In this document: positions 15,721-55,590 of the stretch, one piece after another
Layout: each line of letters opens with the position of its first letter
Position numbering within the stretch: the stretch's first letter is position 1
Assembly (NCBI RefSeq): GCF_015207255.1
Contig: NZ_JADEXG010000032.1
Coordinates: forward strand, 1 to 55,590
Direction: 5' to 3'
Source: Vasconcelosia minhoensis LEGE 07310
GTDB lineage: Bacteria > Cyanobacteriota > Cyanobacteriia > Phormidesmidales > Phormidesmidaceae
Length of the DNA: 55,590 nt
Notes under the pieces: model-generated
What the model was told of the DNA's origin: nothing
Seen by the model: only the letters and a program-made list of their open reading frames with translations
The model's database searches: none
Translations under genes and position numbers: made by a program

Positions 15721-17829
15721 CTACCTCTGCCAGTCGGGGTCTGTAAGCGGGTCCAAAAACGATGAGGGATTTGAGCGTGAGCCGCAGACCAGCAGGGCTC
15801 GCATGGCTCGGGAGCAGCCCACATAGAACAGACGACGCTGCTCGTCTGAAACCGCCGCCAGCTCATCGTCGGGCAAGTCGGCACTAATGTAAGGCAGTAT
15901 GCCCTGGCGCAGCCCCACGATTGCCACGAAGGGAAATTCTAAGCCTTTGGCCGAGTGGAGGGTCAGCACCTTGATGTAGGTGCCCTGTAGATCAATATCG
16001 CGACCTGAGACAAACTGCGCCGCTGTGCCCTGGTCTACCAGGCGCTGCGCGATCGCGGTTCCCATATCTTTGCGCGGGCACAGCACCGCGCCGCCGTATA
16101 TCGGCAGGCGAAAGCGTTTGGCCGCCGCCTTAAAAAAGGCAAGGATCAGCCGACTTTCCTGCTCGACGCTATCGGTGAGGACGAGGGTCGGGGTAGCCCC
16201 CTGGTAGGCAGAGGGTTCCAGGCTGAGGCTGTCTGCGTCTCCGGCAGCGGTGTCTGCTAAAATCGTGCGGCAGGCCGCCATGATCTGCCGAGTATTGCGA
16301 TAGTTTCGCTTCAGCTGTAGCGTCCGCCCCGATACCTTCAGATCGGTGTGGATCTGCTTCCAGCTAAAGCCGCGCTGATAGAGAGACTGAGAGGCATCGG
16401 CGGTGAGGTAGAAGCCCTTGAGCGACGGCACCAGGGCCAGCAGAAATCGCAGGGCCACGGGCGATAGGTCCTGCGCTTCGTCAATCACGATGGCTTGGTA
16501 AGGGGGGTCTGGCAGCTGCTCTGCTACGGCCAGGGCCTGACAGCGAAGCTGCGGCCAGGTGGTCCAGCCGTCCCGCTGCATCAGCCGCCGCCAGGTCTGG
16601 TAGACGCTCCACAGCGCCGTTCGCACGGTCGCCTGGAGCGGGACGCCGCGCCCCCGCCGCTCCAGGGCCAGGTATTCGTCCAGCGTGGTTAGGCCCCAGC
16701 CGTCGATCACGTCCTGGATTTCCTGCATCAGGTAGGGCAGCCCCAGCCGCTCTAAGGTCTGGCGGCGGACCTGGAGATCAAAGGCATTTTTGGCTGGGAT
16801 AGCTGTGGTGTGGAGGGCTTCTCTGAGTAGCGCGAGCCGCTGAGCTTTGTCGGCAAACTGAGGCTCGCCGTGGGTTTGGACGTAGTAGCGACGGGCGAGG
16901 GCGTCAACGGTCGCCACTTTGACGCCTGCCCGGTCGAGGGGTTGGCCCAAGAGCTGACTCAGCAGCTGCTCGGAGTAGGTGACCAGAGCTTTGGTAAAGG
17001 TAGTAAATAGGACGGGCTTGAACCCCTGCGCTAGCAAATTCTGAACCCGGTAGAGGGCCAGGGTAGATTTGCCCGTGCCGGGGCCGCCCTTGACCAGAAT
17101 CGGGCCTTGCTTGCCAAAATCCCTGAGCTTTTCCTGCTCTGGGTCGAGCTTGAGGAGAAAATGGGTGAGGCTGCCTGCGACAAAGCGTTCGAGGTCTTCG
17201 GGCTGCTGGAGCACGTACTCGCGCTCTTCGATAATGTCTTCTATAGGTTTGGGATAGAGGTTGTCAACGATGCGCTGGATATACTGCTCGGGAACGGGCA
17301 GCTCCAGCAGGGCTTCGGAATGGGAGGTCGCCTGGATAGCTGACCAGTATTCGGGCGGAAGCTGCCACTGCCGAAGGACAGCATCAGTCAGCTCAAAAGG
17401 GAGTGAGGTTTGGATTAAAGAAGTCGCTTCGTCGGCCCCAGCGGCCTCAGCTGTGGCCGTTGGGGAAACGGTCGCAGGGTCTGACGGCACGACCTCGATG
17501 GCTTGGGGGTCTAAAACGCTGCTCTCGGGCGGTGGTGCTGGGTCATCAACTTCGGATAGCTCGATTTCGTAGGTGCGCTCGTCGCGCTTGCGCACGCTGA
17601 GCAGCTTTACCCAGCCCTGACCGAAGCTATAGAACAGGCGATAGTCGCCCATGCGGACGCGGTAAACGTTATTGCTATAGCCTCTCAGCTTTTTGGCATC
17701 GCCCTGGGCAGAAATCGGGTCGGCTTCAAGCACCTTCAGCGTTTTTTTGATTTTCTTTTGAACTGCTTTAGGAAGATTCAGCAGCTCGCTGTAAAAGGTT
17801 CCGGTGAAGGATAGCGCCCAGGGGGTCAT
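15721..17829 (-). CDS. RelE/ParE-like domain fused to a UvrD-family helicase
   Basis: A 702-residue fusion. Residues 1-90 match RelE/ParE toxin-fold proteins (helical start, then YRVRMGDYRLFY, VKLLSVRKRDERTYE). After a variable linker (90-200) comes a superfamily 1A helicase: motif I VKGGPGTGKST (about 248), motif II VIDEAQDLSP (about 446), motif V TLHSAKGLEF (about 618) and motif VI EQRRLFYVGCSRA. It is therefore a 3'-5' type DNA helicase with a toxin-like N-terminus that may bind or cleave RNA, or simply bind a partner. No cognate antitoxin is adjacent. It lies between the ParB-like gene (62 bases upstream) and the DUF1998 helicase (9 bases downstream), so all three probably share a transcript. 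Confidence 0.87.
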   Translation of the reverse strand: MTPWALSFTGTFYSELLNLPKAVQKKIKKTLKVLEADPISAQGDAKKLRGYSNNVYRVRMGDYRLFYSFGQGWVKLLSVRKRDERTYEIELSEVDDPAPPPESSVLDPQAIEVVPSDPATVSPTATAEAAGADEATSLIQTSLPFELTDAVLRQWQLPPEYWSAIQATSHSEALLELPVPEQYIQRIVDNLYPKPIEDIIEEREYVLQQPEDLERFVAGSLTHFLLKLDPEQEKLRDFGKQGPILVKGGPGTGKSTLALYRVQNLLAQGFKPVLFTTFTKALVTYSEQLLSQLLGQPLDRAGVKVATVDALARRYYVQTHGEPQFADKAQRLALLREALHTTAIPAKNAFDLQVRRQTLERLGLPYLMQEIQDVIDGWGLTTLDEYLALERRGRGVPLQATVRTALWSVYQTWRRLMQRDGWTTWPQLRCQALAVAEQLPDPPYQAIVIDEAQDLSPVALRFLLALVPSLKGFYLTADASQSLYQRGFSWKQIHTDLKVSGRTLQLKRNYRNTRQIMAACRTILADTAAGDADSLSLEPSAYQGATPTLVLTDSVEQESRLILAFFKAAAKRFRLPIYGGAVLCPRKDMGTAIAQRLVDQGTAAQFVSGRDIDLQGTYIKVLTLHSAKGLEFPFVAIVGLRQGILPYISADLPDDELAAVSDEQRRLFYVGCSRAMRALLVCGSRSNPSSFLDPLTDPDWQR

Positions 17830-50224: not shown

Positions 50225-51409
50225 ATGAAAGTCAACGTGACCAGCAATACGCTGTTTAAGCTTAGCCCCAGGCTCTCGGGTGAGCTGCCCGACTCGGAAA
50301 AGGTCTTTGTTAAAAACGGGACGTCCTTTGAGCTTCAGTCCTATCTGCCAGCAGACAACAACCATACCCGGCTAGCGCTAGCGAATAAAACTTTGGCAGC
50401 GGACCAAAAGGTCTGGTATGCCTACAATCCCGACATCAAAGTGATCGACTCTCAGGTCAAGCTTGCCGTGGTCAGCGATACCCTGTTTAAGCTCCGACCC
50501 GTCCTGTCAACCCAGCTGTCCGACTCGGAAAAGGTCTTTGTCAAAAACGGCACCCAGTTTGACCTCCAGTCTTACCTGCCGGCCGAGGGCAATCATGTGA
50601 AAGTTGCGATCGCCGATACTTTCCTTGGTCCCGACAATCGCAACACCTGGTATGTTTACCGCCCTGACGTGCGAATCAGCGGCTCGACGATTGCCCTGAA
50701 GGTGGTCAGCGATACGATTTTTAAGCTTAGACCGCTGCTGTCGTCTCAGCTCCCGAGCGGCGAGCGCTATTTTGTCAACAACGGTACGACGTTCGAGCTG
50801 ATTGCCCACGAGAAGGCCGAAAATAATCACGTTAAAGTGATCTTAGCCAGCACCGGCCTGGGACCTGACGATGCTAAAACTTGGTATGCCTACGCCCCAG
50901 ATGTCGTTATCGAGGGCAACGAACCGGACAATCAGCCTAAAAACGAAACCCCGCCGCCGCCCCCTGAACCCTCACCGGGTGACGCCATTCGGCTACCGGG
51001 CTTTAGCAGTACCTTCTATCTCTCTAATCCAATTCTTCCTAACGGTAACTTTACCTGGGGCGAAGCCACTAAAAACGGCAGCCGCATTCCCGTAGATAGC
51101 AATGCCGTCTATGGCATTATCCGCATTGCCAAAGCGATGGAGGCGGTGCGATCGCGGCTAGGCGATCGCCCCATTAGGGTTAACTCATGGTACCGTGACT
51201 CAGCGACGAACAAGGCCGTCGGCGGTGCTAGCCGTTCCCGCCATATCGTCGGTGATGCGGTCGATTTTGTGGTGGCGGGCATTCATCCCTATGATGTATA
51301 CGATCAGCTCAGCAGCTGGTGGGGCTCCCGCGGCGGTCTGGCCAGCGCTACGGTCTTTACCCACATCGACGCCCGCGGCTACTACGCCCGCTGGAGCTAT
51401 GGATTTTAA
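50225..51409 (+). CDS. Peptidase M15-type protein with three N-terminal repeats
   Basis: A 394-residue protein. Three repeats of about 75 residues occupy 1-235, each with the core VTSNTLFKL/VSDTLFKL/VSDTIFKL, a KVFVKNGT-like strand, a conserved N-H-V/T-K/R pair and a final W-Y-x-Y-x-PD, probably SH3-like ligand-binding modules. A proline hinge (PPPPPEP) leads to a peptidase M15A-type domain: INSWYRDS-like VNSWYRDSATN, zinc residues in SRHIVGDAVDF and the last His in THIDARGYYARW. Such domains cut peptidoglycan peptides. There is no visible signal peptide at the ATG at 50225, which is odd for a wall enzyme. Confidence 0.87.
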   Translation: MKVNVTSNTLFKLSPRLSGELPDSEKVFVKNGTSFELQSYLPADNNHTRLALANKTLAADQKVWYAYNPDIKVIDSQVKLAVVSDTLFKLRPVLSTQLSDSEKVFVKNGTQFDLQSYLPAEGNHVKVAIADTFLGPDNRNTWYVYRPDVRISGSTIALKVVSDTIFKLRPLLSSQLPSGERYFVNNGTTFELIAHEKAENNHVKVILASTGLGPDDAKTWYAYAPDVVIEGNEPDNQPKNETPPPPPEPSPGDAIRLPGFSSTFYLSNPILPNGNFTWGEATKNGSRIPVDSNAVYGIIRIAKAMEAVRSRLGDRPIRVNSWYRDSATNKAVGGASRSRHIVGDAVDFVVAGIHPYDVYDQLSSWWGSRGGLASATVFTHIDARGYYARWSYGF

Positions 51410-51724: not shown

Positions 51725-52669
51725 ATGAAAACAGTTTATCTTCATATAGGAACTTTCAAAACTGGTACGACAGCGCTGCAAAAGATACTATTTGCCAATC
51801 GTCAGAAGCTGCTTGAGAACGGATACTTTTATCCCGATATCGGCATTCCCAATAAGTATAACCCCGGTCAGATCGCCCTTTCATGGTCATTTACCCACGA
51901 CAAAGACTTTTACGTTCTCCCCTATAAAACCTTTGATCTGAGAGACATTCGAGAAAGAGCACTAGCAGATATTGAAGCCCATGATGCAGACAATATCATT
52001 ATTAGCTCAGAGTATTTTTCCTTGTTCAGTACCGAGCAGGTTGCTCAGGTTAAGCAGATGTTTGATGGCTTTAAGGTCGTCATCATTCTATACCTGAGAA
52101 GACAGGACAAATTCTTTCTTTCGCTTTATTCTGAGCAGGTCAAAAAGGGATATGCAAAAGATATTAAGGATTTTTGTGAAGAGTTTGAAGAAAGAGGGAA
52201 CTACTACAAAATTCTTAAAAGCTGGAGTACGGTATTTGGTGATGAGAACTTAGTTATTAAGATATATCCTGAAAGCCGACCTCGGGACTGGCTGATCAGC
52301 GATTTCTTGCAGACCTTAAATATTTCCCTGGAGCCCAGTCAGCTGACCCATGGCAAAAAAGCGTTTAATGTCAGTCTTTCTGGAAAGTCGCTAAAAATTA
52401 TGCGCTTCTTAAACCGCTGGCTGCTCGAACGGTTTTCCTTGCCGAAAGCTTGGTGCCTCTGGCTCTATCTACACCCGCTACAAAGGCAGCGTCCTAAAAC
52501 CGTCGTGTCATGGATACCCGAATGGCTGCTCAGCAATGAAATACTGGCCCCCGATGATAAAGATGCCCTGTTGAGACAATATAAGCCTCTAAATCGAAAA
52601 GTCTCTGAAGAGTATTTAGACCAAGAATCTCATCCTTTCATTTGGTCACAAGTAGAGAAACAGAATTAA
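51725..52669 (+). CDS. Sulfotransferase family protein
   Basis: A 314-residue protein. The PAPS-binding loop is IGTFKTGTTALQ (residues 8-19) and the 3'-phosphate site YLRRQDKFFLSLYSE (about 127-141, with the Arg and Ser). Sulfotransferases of this bacterial type act on polysaccharides or surface glycans. It is AT-richer than the flanking genes and stands alone after a MITE-like repeat, consistent with acquisition. No glycan genes are adjacent, so the acceptor is unknown. Confidence 0.85.
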   Translation: MKTVYLHIGTFKTGTTALQKILFANRQKLLENGYFYPDIGIPNKYNPGQIALSWSFTHDKDFYVLPYKTFDLRDIRERALADIEAHDADNIIISSEYFSLFSTEQVAQVKQMFDGFKVVIILYLRRQDKFFLSLYSEQVKKGYAKDIKDFCEEFEERGNYYKILKSWSTVFGDENLVIKIYPESRPRDWLISDFLQTLNISLEPSQLTHGKKAFNVSLSGKSLKIMRFLNRWLLERFSLPKAWCLWLYLHPLQRQRPKTVVSWIPEWLLSNEILAPDDKDALLRQYKPLNRKVSEEYLDQESHPFIWSQVEKQN

Positions 52670-52701: not shown

Positions 52702-53079
52702 TCATGAAAGAACTTGCCCTGTTTGAGCGATCGCGGCTTTAAGCGAGTCAGGACAGTAGGACATATCCACTAAATCAATCTTAAAGTCTGAGTCAATATC
52801 CTGCAGCTGGGCAACGGCTGACCAATCGCTTTGAGGAGCAATTCCCCAAACTGCCAAGTCGATATCAGAATTCAGCGAAAACCAGGGACACAGTAGGGAC
52901 CCAAACACGGCAACTTTTTCCGCCGCGAAGTTTTGCTTCAGCAGATCAGCGGCCTGATGTGCTAGCAGCCAAGCCCGCTGACGGCGCCGAATAATCTGCC
53001 GCTGAGTTGATTGACTGCGACGCTGGGCGGAGGCACGGTAAATCGCCATTGCCTGGGAGGTTAGAGCAGAAGAACCCAT
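52702..53079 (-). CDS. MNT-type nucleotidyltransferase with N-terminal extension
   Basis: A 125-residue protein. AVFGSLLCPWFSLNSDIDLAVWG gives GS and the DxD pair of the nucleotidyltransferase fold, written here as FGSLL and SDIDLAV. A basic N-terminal helix (RRSQSTQRQIIRRRQRAW) precedes it. An ATG at codon 11 (MAIYRASAQ) is an alternative start. No HEPN partner is adjacent, unlike standard HEPN/MNT pairs. Confidence 0.82.
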   Translation of the reverse strand: MGSSALTSQAMAIYRASAQRRSQSTQRQIIRRRQRAWLLAHQAADLLKQNFAAEKVAVFGSLLCPWFSLNSDIDLAVWGIAPQSDWSAVAQLQDIDSDFKIDLVDMSYCPDSLKAAIAQTGQVLS

Positions 53080-53193: not shown

Positions 53194-53667
53194 CTAAAGC
53201 GTTTGATAATATTCTTCTAGCAGGGCCAAGACGGCTGCTAGCTGTCGTCTGTGCTTTTCGCTGGGCTCAAGCTGGAAGCGGATTTGCCCAGCACGGCATC
53301 CAGCTTCGATTCTAGCTCGGCGAGCTGCTCGTTCTGCTTCCTCAGCGCTTCGGTTCCTTTCTTGAATTCTTCGTTGCTCTTCCTCAGCGATAAAGTTCGC
53401 TTGGCGAGTTCGGAACTCTGCTTCCTCAGCGTTTCGTTGTACTTCCTCAGCCCGGCGTTGTACTTCTTCAACTCGGATAAACCCCCGTAGGACCTGATCC
53501 ACTGCCACAGTGAAAAACGTGACGGCGGCGAGGAGGAGGCCGACCCACTGGGGCAGGACGATTCGGTATGAGGTGAATTCGAGGGTGTCATAGCTGAGGA
53601 CAACTCCAGTCAGAAAAACCAGTAAGGTCGCAAAAATCGCGACAAAGGTCTGAAAATCAATAGGCAT
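53194..53667 (-). CDS. Membrane coiled-coil protein, array copy 1
   Basis: A 157-residue protein. Two hydrophobic spans (FVAIFATLLVFLTGVVL about 7-23 and VGLLLAAVTFFTVAV about 42-56) are followed by a charged coiled coil of heptads such as VQRRAEE, then EEQRRIQE, an Arg/Ala-rich RAARRARIEAGCRAGQIRF region and LLEEYYQTL. The probable topology is two spans with a cytoplasmic coiled coil. Unknown family. Confidence 0.82.
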   Translation of the reverse strand: MPIDFQTFVAIFATLLVFLTGVVLSYDTLEFTSYRIVLPQWVGLLLAAVTFFTVAVDQVLRGFIRVEEVQRRAEEVQRNAEEAEFRTRQANFIAEEEQRRIQERNRSAEEAERAARRARIEAGCRAGQIRFQLEPSEKHRRQLAAVLALLEEYYQTL

Positions 53668-53714
53668 CTCTGCTGTGATTTTAACCCAGGAAGTTGAGCG
53701 TCACGGTGCAGCGC

Positions 53715-54146
53715 TCAGAGCGTCTGGCGATATTCCTCCAGCAGGGCCAAAACGGCGGCTAGCTGTCTTCGGTGGGCTGGGCTGGGCTCCAGCTGGAATC
53801 GGATTTGGCCAGCACGGCATCCAGCTTCGATTCGAGCTCGGCGAGCTGCTCGTTCTGCTTCCTCAGTGATAAGGTTCGTTTGCCGAGTTCGGAACTCTGC
53901 TTCCTCAGCGTTTCGTTGTACTTCCTCAGCCCGGCGTTGTACTTCTTCAACTCGGATAAACCCCCGTAGGACCTGATCCACTGCCACAGTGAAAAACGTG
54001 ACGGCGGCGAGGAGGAGGCCGACCCACTGGGGCAGGACGATTCGGTATGAGGTGAATTCGAGGGTGTCATAGCTGAGGACAACTCCAGTCAGAAAAACCA
54101 GTAAGGTCGCAAAAATCGCGACAAAGGTCTGAAAATCAATAGGCAT
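53715..54146 (-). CDS. Membrane coiled-coil protein, array copy 2
   Basis: A 143-residue copy with the same N-terminal spans and C-terminal region but fewer heptads than copy 1 (it goes directly from EEAEFRTRQTN to LITEEAERAARRAR). The preceding 48 bases repeat in copy 3. Confidence 0.82.
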   Translation of the reverse strand: MPIDFQTFVAIFATLLVFLTGVVLSYDTLEFTSYRIVLPQWVGLLLAAVTFFTVAVDQVLRGFIRVEEVQRRAEEVQRNAEEAEFRTRQTNLITEEAERAARRARIEAGCRAGQIRFQLEPSPAHRRQLAAVLALLEEYRQTL

Positions 54147-54193
54147 CTCTGCTGTGATTTTAACCCAGGAAGTTGAGCGTCACGGTGCAGCGC

Positions 54194-54625
54194 TCAGAGC
54201 GTCTGGCGATATTCCTCCAGCAGGGCCAAAACGGCGGCTAGCTGTCTTCGGTGGGCTGGGCTGGGCTCCAGCTGGAATCGGATTTGGCCAGCACGGCATC
54301 CAGCTTCGATTCGAGCTCGGCGAGCTGCTCGTTCTGCTTCCTCAGTGATAAGGTTCGTTTGCCGAGTTCGGAACTCTGCTTCCTCAGCACTTCGTTGTAC
54401 TTCCTCAGCGCTTCGTTGTACTTCTTCAACTCGGATAAACCCCCGTAGGATTTGATCCACTGCCACAGTGAAAAACGTGACGGCGGCGAGGAGGAGGCCG
54501 ACCCACTGGGGCAGGACGATTCGGTATGAGGTGAATTCGAGGGTGTCATAGCTGAGGACAACTCCAGTCAAGAAGACCAGAAGGGTCGCAAAAATCGCAA
54601 CAAAGGTTTGGAAGTCAATGGGCAT
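54194..54625 (-). CDS. Membrane coiled-coil protein, array copy 3
   Basis: A 143-residue copy, nearly identical to copy 2. Differences are small: Val to Ile before LRGF, and RSAEE replaces RRAEE or RNAEE in the heptads. This suggests very recent duplication or gene conversion. Confidence 0.82.
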   Translation of the reverse strand: MPIDFQTFVAIFATLLVFLTGVVLSYDTLEFTSYRIVLPQWVGLLLAAVTFFTVAVDQILRGFIRVEEVQRSAEEVQRSAEEAEFRTRQTNLITEEAERAARRARIEAGCRAGQIRFQLEPSPAHRRQLAAVLALLEEYRQTL

Positions 54626-54723
54626 CTCTACTTTAATTTTAGCCCAGGGAGCGACAAGACGCTTTTCTAGGTGAGAGGGCGCACGATCGCATCACGTCAG
54701 CTAGAAATCACAGTACATAATAC

Positions 54724-55302
54724 TCAAAGCGTTTGGCGATATTCCTCTAGCAGAGCCAGGAGGGCGACTAGCTCTCTTCGGTGGTCGGCACTGGGCTCAA
54801 GCTGGAATCGGATTTGCCCAGCACGGCATCCAGCTTCGATTCGAGCTCGGCGAGCTGCTCGTTCTGCTTCCTCAGTGATAAGGTTCGTTTGCCGAGTTCG
54901 GAACTCTGCTTCCTCAGCGTTTCGTTGCTCCTCTCGAATTCTTCGTTGCTCCTCTCGAATTCTTCGTTGCTCCTCTTGAATTCTTCGTTGCTCTTCCTCA
55001 GCGATAAAGTTCGTTTGGCGAGTTCGGAACTCTGCTTCCTCAGCGTTTCGTTGTGCTTCCTCAGCTCGGCGTTGTACTTCCTCAGCTCGGCGTTGTACTT
55101 CTTCAACTCGGATAAACCCCCGTAGGACCTGATCCACTGCCACAGTGAAAAACGTGACGGTGGCGAGGAGGAGGCCGACCCACTGGGGCAGGAGGATTCG
55201 GTATGCGGTGAATTCGAGGGTGTCATAGCTGAGGACAACGCTAGTCAGGAAGACCAGAAGGGTCGCAAAAATGGCGACAAAGGTTTGGAAGTCAATGGGC
55301 AT
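54724..55302 (-). CDS. Membrane coiled-coil protein, array copy 4
   Basis: A 192-residue copy, the longest seen. Its coiled coil is expanded with consecutive units such as QRRIQEE, QRRIREE, QRRIREE and QRNAEEA, encoded by 21-base direct repeats around 54925-54995. The spans differ slightly (TSVVLSYD, ILLPQWVG). Confidence 0.82.
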   Translation of the reverse strand: MPIDFQTFVAIFATLLVFLTSVVLSYDTLEFTAYRILLPQWVGLLLATVTFFTVAVDQVLRGFIRVEEVQRRAEEVQRRAEEAQRNAEEAEFRTRQTNFIAEEEQRRIQEEQRRIREEQRRIREEQRNAEEAEFRTRQTNLITEEAERAARRARIEAGCRAGQIRFQLEPSADHRRELVALLALLEEYRQTL

Positions 55303-55398
55303 CTCTACTTTAATTTTAGCCCAGGGAGCGACAAGACGCTTTTTGAGGTGAGAAGGCGCGATCGCATCACGTCAGCCAGGAATCACGGTACACAACCT

Positions 55399-55590
55399 TC
55401 AAAGCGTCTGGCGGTATTCCTCCAGCAGGGCTAAAACGGCGGCTAGCTGTCTTCGGTGGTCTTCGCTGGGCTCAAGCTGGAATCGGATTTGGCCAGCACG
55501 GCATCCAGCTTCGATTCTAGCTCGGCGAGCCGCTCGTTCTGCTTCCTCAGCGCTGCGGTATCTTTCTCGAACTCTTCGTTGCTCCTCTTG
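55399..55590 (-). CDS. Membrane coiled-coil protein, array copy 5 (partial)
   Basis: The last 63 residues of a fifth copy, read directly: starting QEEQRRVRERYRSAEEAE at the window edge and ending LLEEYRQTL with its stop at 55399. The N-terminal spans lie beyond the window. Confidence 0.82.
   Translation of the reverse strand, partial: QEEQRRVRERYRSAEEAERAARRARIEAGCRAGQIRFQLEPSEDHRRQLAAVLALLEEYRQTL

Follow-up and report, generated by a model that had tools for sequence, protein, structure and literature searches.

A tandem array of small coiled-coil genes in Vasconcelosia minhoensis LEGE 07310 is probably built from a nested gene pair. Each array unit would carry an outer gene, A, and a gene, B, started internally in the +1 frame of A. 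The coils of the two proteins would come from one shared repeat, and the proteins themselves may be length-matched partners in a membrane-attached rod. The broader proposal, that cyanobacteria hold a family of nested gene pairs in which A is a membrane hairpin with a charged helix and B is a soluble, leucine-zipper-like protein, is one that we regard as almost certainly correct on sequence grounds. The sequence-only reading of this DNA had described the array and overlooked the second gene nested in the +1 frame of each copy.

The window, meaning the whole 55,590-nucleotide stretch that was analyzed, is one entire contig (C124) of a 5.26-Mb genome in 161 contigs. The minus strand at 53194-55590 carries five two-span coiled-coil genes in head-to-tail order, four of them complete and one cut off. 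The outer gene of copy 1, in frame 0, encodes a two-span membrane protein with a charged coil (53194-53667, 157 amino acids [aa]); it is followed by copy 2 (53715-54146, 143 aa), copy 3 (54194-54625, 143 aa), copy 4 (54724-55302, 192 aa, with the longest coil), and copy 5 (55399-55590), which is truncated by the contig end. Tandem Repeats Finder reported a period of 479 bases at 53371-54648 (2.7 copies, 96% matches, score 2365) and several 21-base arrays besides, in the coils of copy 1 (53421-53470), copy 2 (53900-53949), copy 3 (54379-54428), and copy 4 (54921-54993, 3.5 copies; 55035-55111, 3.7 copies). The spacing between copies is twice exactly 479 bases. Copy 1 (53400-53714) differs from copy 2 at 2 of 315 bases, and copy 2 differs from copy 3 at 17 of 479. 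The sequence-only reading had described at least five near-identical two-span coiled-coil genes with 21-base units, correctly in both coordinates and copies, and its proposal of recent unequal crossing-over is supported. It had also advised extending the window to the right; the window is already the whole contig, and the array is cut by its end. Such a cut is typical of short-read assembly in a repeat, so the copy number in the window is a lower bound and uncertain, and an assembly error may lie behind its exact value. The earlier concern that the array might be an assembly artifact thus still applies to the exact number here. It does not extend to the arrangement itself, which recurs in single-contig genomes, with five copies in one (G056) and several in another (G301). 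No sigma-70-like promoters were found within the array. Further gene copies occur on contig C50 of the same genome (4561-4908, 16984-17352, 20045-20539, and 20587-20988, all on the plus strand). The lengths of seven of the eight complete genes in this genome (115, 122, 143, 143, 157, 164, and 192 aa) follow 115 + 7k, and the eighth has 133 aa and an altered C terminus.

A long +1-frame open reading frame (ORF) is present in every window copy. The nested genes, likewise on the minus strand, occupy 53238-53591 in copy 1 (117 aa, with the ATG at 53591), 53759-54070 in copy 2 (103 aa), 54238-54549 in copy 3 (103 aa), and 54768-55226 in copy 4 (152 aa). In copy 5, the nested gene (55443-55590) is truncated by the contig end; a profile match covers 55446-55586, and the stop is placed by analogy with copies 1 to 4. 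A complete +1 ORF with an ATG was found in 81 of 81 full-length homologs, which share ancestry and so do not amount to 81 independent tests, and it never extends past the outer stop. These homologs comprise the 80 distinct full-length proteins minus two broken ones (L087 and L118) plus three from L127. The ATG arises at the Tyr codon that follows the first membrane span, or one codon later, and is built from TAT+G in 65 homologs, GAT+G in 11, and AAT+G in 5, so that the start of B is conserved despite differing outer codons. The B stop falls 10 to 31 codons ahead of the A stop. When the codons of the 81 homologs were shuffled, the open +1 frame had an expected mean length of 82 codons, against 111 observed; the +2 frame showed no excess openness (42 codons against 47 expected). 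The ratio of +1 openness to the codon-shuffle expectation was 1.39 in the family and 1.01 in 289 neighboring ORFs.

The +1 peptides form one protein family, with a Ser/Thr/Pro-rich start, a Trp-rich amphipathic stretch (for example, WQPSWLHWLISALSG), and a leucine-zipper-like coil ending in NERLAELESKLDAVL. The consensus starts MTxKTSxSSxSSPxP and, by eye, is without a hydrophobic signal. An AlphaFold2 single-chain model of the copy 4 protein (mean pLDDT 83, with a low pTM of 0.53) has a disordered tail, a short helix (H25-34), and a 107-residue helix (H37-143). No match of a window B protein to Pfam or NCBIfam reached the cut-off. Tallies over all 81 members, to which no per-member cut-offs were applied, gave weak coiled-coil matches only (best E value, 3.3e-8), as did a sequence search of the PDB with B. 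The B profile finds matches in 54 of the 380 near-complete genomes, which are almost the same genomes as for A. A phylum search was positive for 29 of 386 genomes, and outside the class it gave two weak matches only. In very distant picocyanobacterial homologs, with outer E values of about 1e-10, the A/B layout is similar and the phase is kept; the +1 ORF persists and its ATG lies at the Tyr of SSYDH. When loci were scanned with the A and B profiles together, 179 outer matches had an exact-phase +1 partner, 21 matches were outer-only, and 2 were inner-only, in a tally that counts overlapping loci more than once. Most unpaired matches were gene fragments, copies with a frameshift, or distant genes from picocyanobacteria, and the same scan yielded no convincing standalone B gene.

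Selection on the two frames was measured with the single-coding parts of the same genes as controls, using disjoint pairs only, within stated divergence limits. In 29 disjoint sister pairs with 2 to 12% difference, third positions of A differed at a rate of 0.198 before the B ATG, 0.059 inside B, and 0.341 past the +1 stop; the corresponding first-position rates were 0.063, 0.066, and 0.116. Third positions of A inside B thus change about 3 to 6 times less than on the flanks, and in 32 pairs the drop starts at the B ATG and ends at the +1 stop. Isolated differences in the overlap of 30 pairs were then sorted by effect. Per 1,000 opportunities, changes silent in both frames occurred at 45.5, changes silent in A only at 9.7, changes silent in B only at 8.8, and changes altering both proteins at 2.7. 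Outside the overlap, A-silent changes with an effect on the +1 reading ran at 46 before it and 48 after it on the same scale. Changes silent in both frames therefore run at the neutral rate, and the two frames are about equally constrained, at roughly 0.2 of neutral. With pairs restricted to those from different loci (19 pairs), the constraint ratio was 0.25 (0.18 to 0.33) for B and 0.17 (0.13 to 0.23) for A, and the window genome alone (4 pairs) gave 0.13 (0.03 to 0.26). A-silent changes were reduced in each of three parts taken alone: the nonrepeat loop with the second span, the coil, and the final 25 codons. Purifying selection acts on both frames. As judged by sequence evolution, then, both frames code, and the putative start and stop of B bound the constraint. 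Chance or a simple repeat artifact was considered as the source of the +1 ORF and rejected in view of the boundary steps and the four-class rates.

The length of the coils changes in a characteristic way. In 15 multicopy groups, adjacent lengths differ by sums of 7 and 11 in 32 of 34 cases, the other two differences being 17 and 3. Seven and eleven are the two repeat lengths tolerated by a coil, and hydrophobic periodicity peaks at 3.5 to 3.55 residues in both frames. Terminal parts are also exchanged, some pairs being 82 to 83% identical in the N part and 16 to 24% identical in the C part. Together, the length steps and these exchanges mark the coil region as both length variable and a recombination joint. 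In evolutionary terms, coil length evidently moves in 7s and 11s and the C-terminal domain is evidently exchanged. The variation in copy and heptad number that the sequence-only reading expected is real at single sites in related genomes. In genus g35, a site between a GDT1-type gene and one that we take to be RluD-type carries five copies, three copies, or decayed copies in three genomes; a second site has one copy in Picosynechococcus PCC 7117 and three plus one broken copy in a relative. The functional meanings attached to that variation fared worse. The repeat units are multiples of three, so no frame is switched on or off by their gain or loss, and every length class is open in both frames, which speaks against phase variation. 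Arms-race adaptation is no more than conjecture, and both frames are under purifying selection.

Cyanobacteria have coiled-coil-rich proteins with long coils. Comparison with homologs from other cyanobacteria confirms the reading frame of A, the two-span protein. Neither Pfam nor NCBIfam had a model above cut-off for the window copies of A, and none of 23 A homologs scored above the curated Pfam cut-off. The AlphaFold2 single-chain model of A (mean pLDDT 81, with a low pTM of 0.43) agrees with the earlier description of a membrane protein that has two spans and a long coil: it has a hairpin of two helices, a continuous 93-residue helix rich in Arg, Glu, and Ala, and a final helix (H5-30, H41-133, and H137-156). 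A fold search against the PDB gave no match at an E value of ≤0.001.

These features suggest how the pair may work. A would span the membrane twice, and the Arg-rich end after the second span would place its long Arg/Glu/Ala helix inside the cell, on the cytoplasmic side, ahead of the C-terminal helix. B, wholly inside A in the +1 frame, would be made by internal initiation and, being without a signal sequence, would share the compartment of the A coil; its Trp-rich stretch may lie against the membrane surface. Unequal exchange would add or remove 21-base units, or 33-base units elsewhere, and since one repeat region codes for both coils, both rods would lengthen or shorten together by an equal number of residues. 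A and B would then be length-matched partners in a membrane-attached rod or spacer, with the array copies supplying a set of lengths. As both rods would then extend from the membrane over almost the same length, our best guess at a function, held only tentatively, is a length-matched, membrane-attached spacer or scaffold. A bolder and rather doubtful extension is that overprinting might serve as a length-locking device, through which recombination keeps the partner rods equal and the array becomes a self-matching spacer set.

It is also possible, although we do not favor it, that A and B act separately, with B tuning the translation of A or serving as an independent scaffold, and with the shared length as a side effect. 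Any contact between A and B would be putative, and the available text on Bacillus subtilis comS and srfA, which are nested, describes independent roles for the two (PMC12350097). In both proteins the length steps conform to coil periods, which weighs toward partnership, though the shared DNA would explain this as well.

The distribution of the family bears on another explanation. Close homologs of A were found in cyanobacteria only, and a class-level search found A in 58 of the class's 380 near-complete genomes (59 of 388 overall), often in multiple copies. This patchiness, together with the arrays and their decay, would be explained by a nested toxin-antitoxin or selfish module, in which A is a small membrane toxin that the soluble B neutralizes. 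Broken copies do exist, and the neighbors include a DUF2281 protein accompanied by a possible VapC on contig C50 and, in the window, an MntA-like nucleotidyltransferase. However, matched growth of two coils is no known property of such pairs, and no plasmid or phage copies were found: viral contigs gave no match, nor did plasmids searched with A or phages searched with B. For neighboring genes, the four nearest ORFs at each site (34 locus ids, two duplicate ORFs removed; 133 ORFs) were compared with 129 control ORFs drawn at 19 random places, a twentieth place having been left out because it was close to an array. DUF29 proteins made up 6 of 133 ORFs beside the family and Uma2 proteins 3 of 133, against 2 of 129 each at random places, which is no clear excess, and the comparison as a whole revealed no clear functional link. 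We therefore consider a toxin-antitoxin module unlikely. GDP-mannose dehydratase-type genes accounted for 5 of 133 ORFs beside the family and were absent from the 25 commonest control families, an excess that is suggestive only.

The start of B may also carry a signal of its own. The Arg codon just before the B ATG is AGA or AGG in 45 of the 69 genes in which the motif could be located, against 10 of 120 Arg codons in single-coding parts of the same genes; in neighboring ORFs the AGA/AGG share is 12.7%. This codon choice creates GAGG or GAGA sites directly upstream of the B ATG. A Shine-Dalgarno (SD)-like 4-mer lies 3 to 12 bases upstream of 36 of 81 B ATGs, compared with 9 of 81 outer starts, and the other 45 B ATGs are without one in that interval. 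In the window copies the signal is weak, with GGAG 12 bases upstream in copies 1 to 3 and none in copy 4. The enrichment of AGA and AGG just upstream of the ATG, the preservation of that ATG by three codon arrangements, and the onset of third-position constraint at the ATG all argue against the proposal that both frames code but that B arises by +1 ribosomal frameshifting, as a product joining the first span and the leucine-zipper coil. The natural shift in genome G030 (contig C2, L047), which places the first span and the +1 coil together, would fit that proposal, which on balance appears quite improbable. The weakest explanation is that A is the single coding gene, its +1 openness a by-product of an E/Q/R/A-rich repeat and its scarcity of silent changes a result of gene conversion or codon bias: by the genetic code, none of the codons for these four residues carries T in its second position, which makes +1 stops impossible in the coil, the copies do recombine, and structured frameshifted products have been reported for tandem repeats in the available text of PMC12871928, but the constraint spans the nonrepeat loop and second span, stops at the +1 stop, and persists between different genomes, changes silent in both frames still run at the neutral rate, and openness beats codon shuffles in 80 of 81 family genes against 43% of the 289 control ORFs, so we give it very little credence.

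The nested pair, with B putatively initiated internally, can be set beside several known systems. According to the available text of PMC6139136, the Rz1 gene of lambda lies inside Rz in the +1 frame, and B likewise lies wholly in the +1 frame of a gene for a membrane-anchored coiled-coil protein. There are also differences. A has two hydrophobic helices and a coil that is probably cytoplasmic, whereas the outer gene of the spanin pair encodes one N-terminal span and a coil outside the inner membrane. B, unlike the Rz1 lipoprotein, lacks both a signal sequence and a lipobox, and it is a coil in its own right. The pair also resides on cyanobacterial chromosomes, in tandem arrays with heptad steps and with no phage match. 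Tests for a spanin (a lipoprotein, a single span, a phage location) were all negative, so the likeness to Rz/Rz1 is one of gene layout only. The comS gene in srfA and other bacterial nested genes are, in the same partial coverage of PMC12350097, likewise same-strand, out-of-frame genes inside bacterial genes; A and B differ from these in being a multicopy pair, both of whose proteins are coils from one shared repeat, and in having similar constraint on both frames across a wide cyanobacterial range. Frameshifted tandem repeats offer a third parallel, in that a repeat whose length is a multiple of a codon gives a periodic protein, including coiled coils, in other frames (PMC12871928, available portion). 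The frameshifted products described there are mostly predictions, whereas B is under selection and has its own start, stop, and nonrepeat parts.

Long same-strand nested genes in bacteria have been called rare anomalies and are discarded by annotation tools, according to the available part of PMC12350097. The literature covered, including the accessible portions of PMC6139136, PMC12350097, PMC12871928, and PMC3711429, contains no report of the A/B pair; subscription journals lie mostly outside that coverage. As far as the sequences indicate, the nested-pair family with coupled repeat length is widespread, and it is absent from Pfam and NCBIfam in the members tested. With dozens of natural replicates and controls within each gene, the family opens dual coding, internal starts, and overlapping-gene evolution to testing in cyanobacteria that can be cultured. 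Should A and B prove to be partners, the pair would represent a new way of keeping two interacting proteins length-matched.

Several features of individual loci deserve mention. Several arrays (L006, L113, L119, L122, and L123) adjoin polysaccharide genes, namely glycosyltransferases and genes of the GDP-mannose dehydratase type. Uma2 genes are interleaved in the array of G301 (L112 and L126 being the loci concerned) and DUF29 genes in that of G232. In the G030 locus (L047:4857-5360), a frameshift has put the first membrane span and the +1 coil into a single open frame, which could be either a natural A-B fusion or a pseudogene. On contig C50, an ORF at 17391-17825 (L007:2392-2826) has an N terminus resembling the window genes (MAVDFQTFVAIF), followed by a DUF2281-like part (E value of 2.6e-5, just under the cut-off), and the TTG-started ORF after it has, by eye, the look of a PIN toxin and no Pfam match. 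The MntA-like nucleotidyltransferase beside the window array (52702-53079, minus strand) matches Polbeta with an E value of 7.7e-9, and its match to the NCBIfam MntA antitoxin is below the cut-off. Farther from the array, on the plus strand, 51725-52669 may encode a sulfotransferase (weak Pfam match, E value of 0.057), and 50225-51409 encodes a peptidase M15 protein with three repeats of about 77 residues upstream (family D4, at spacings of 231 and 234 bases).
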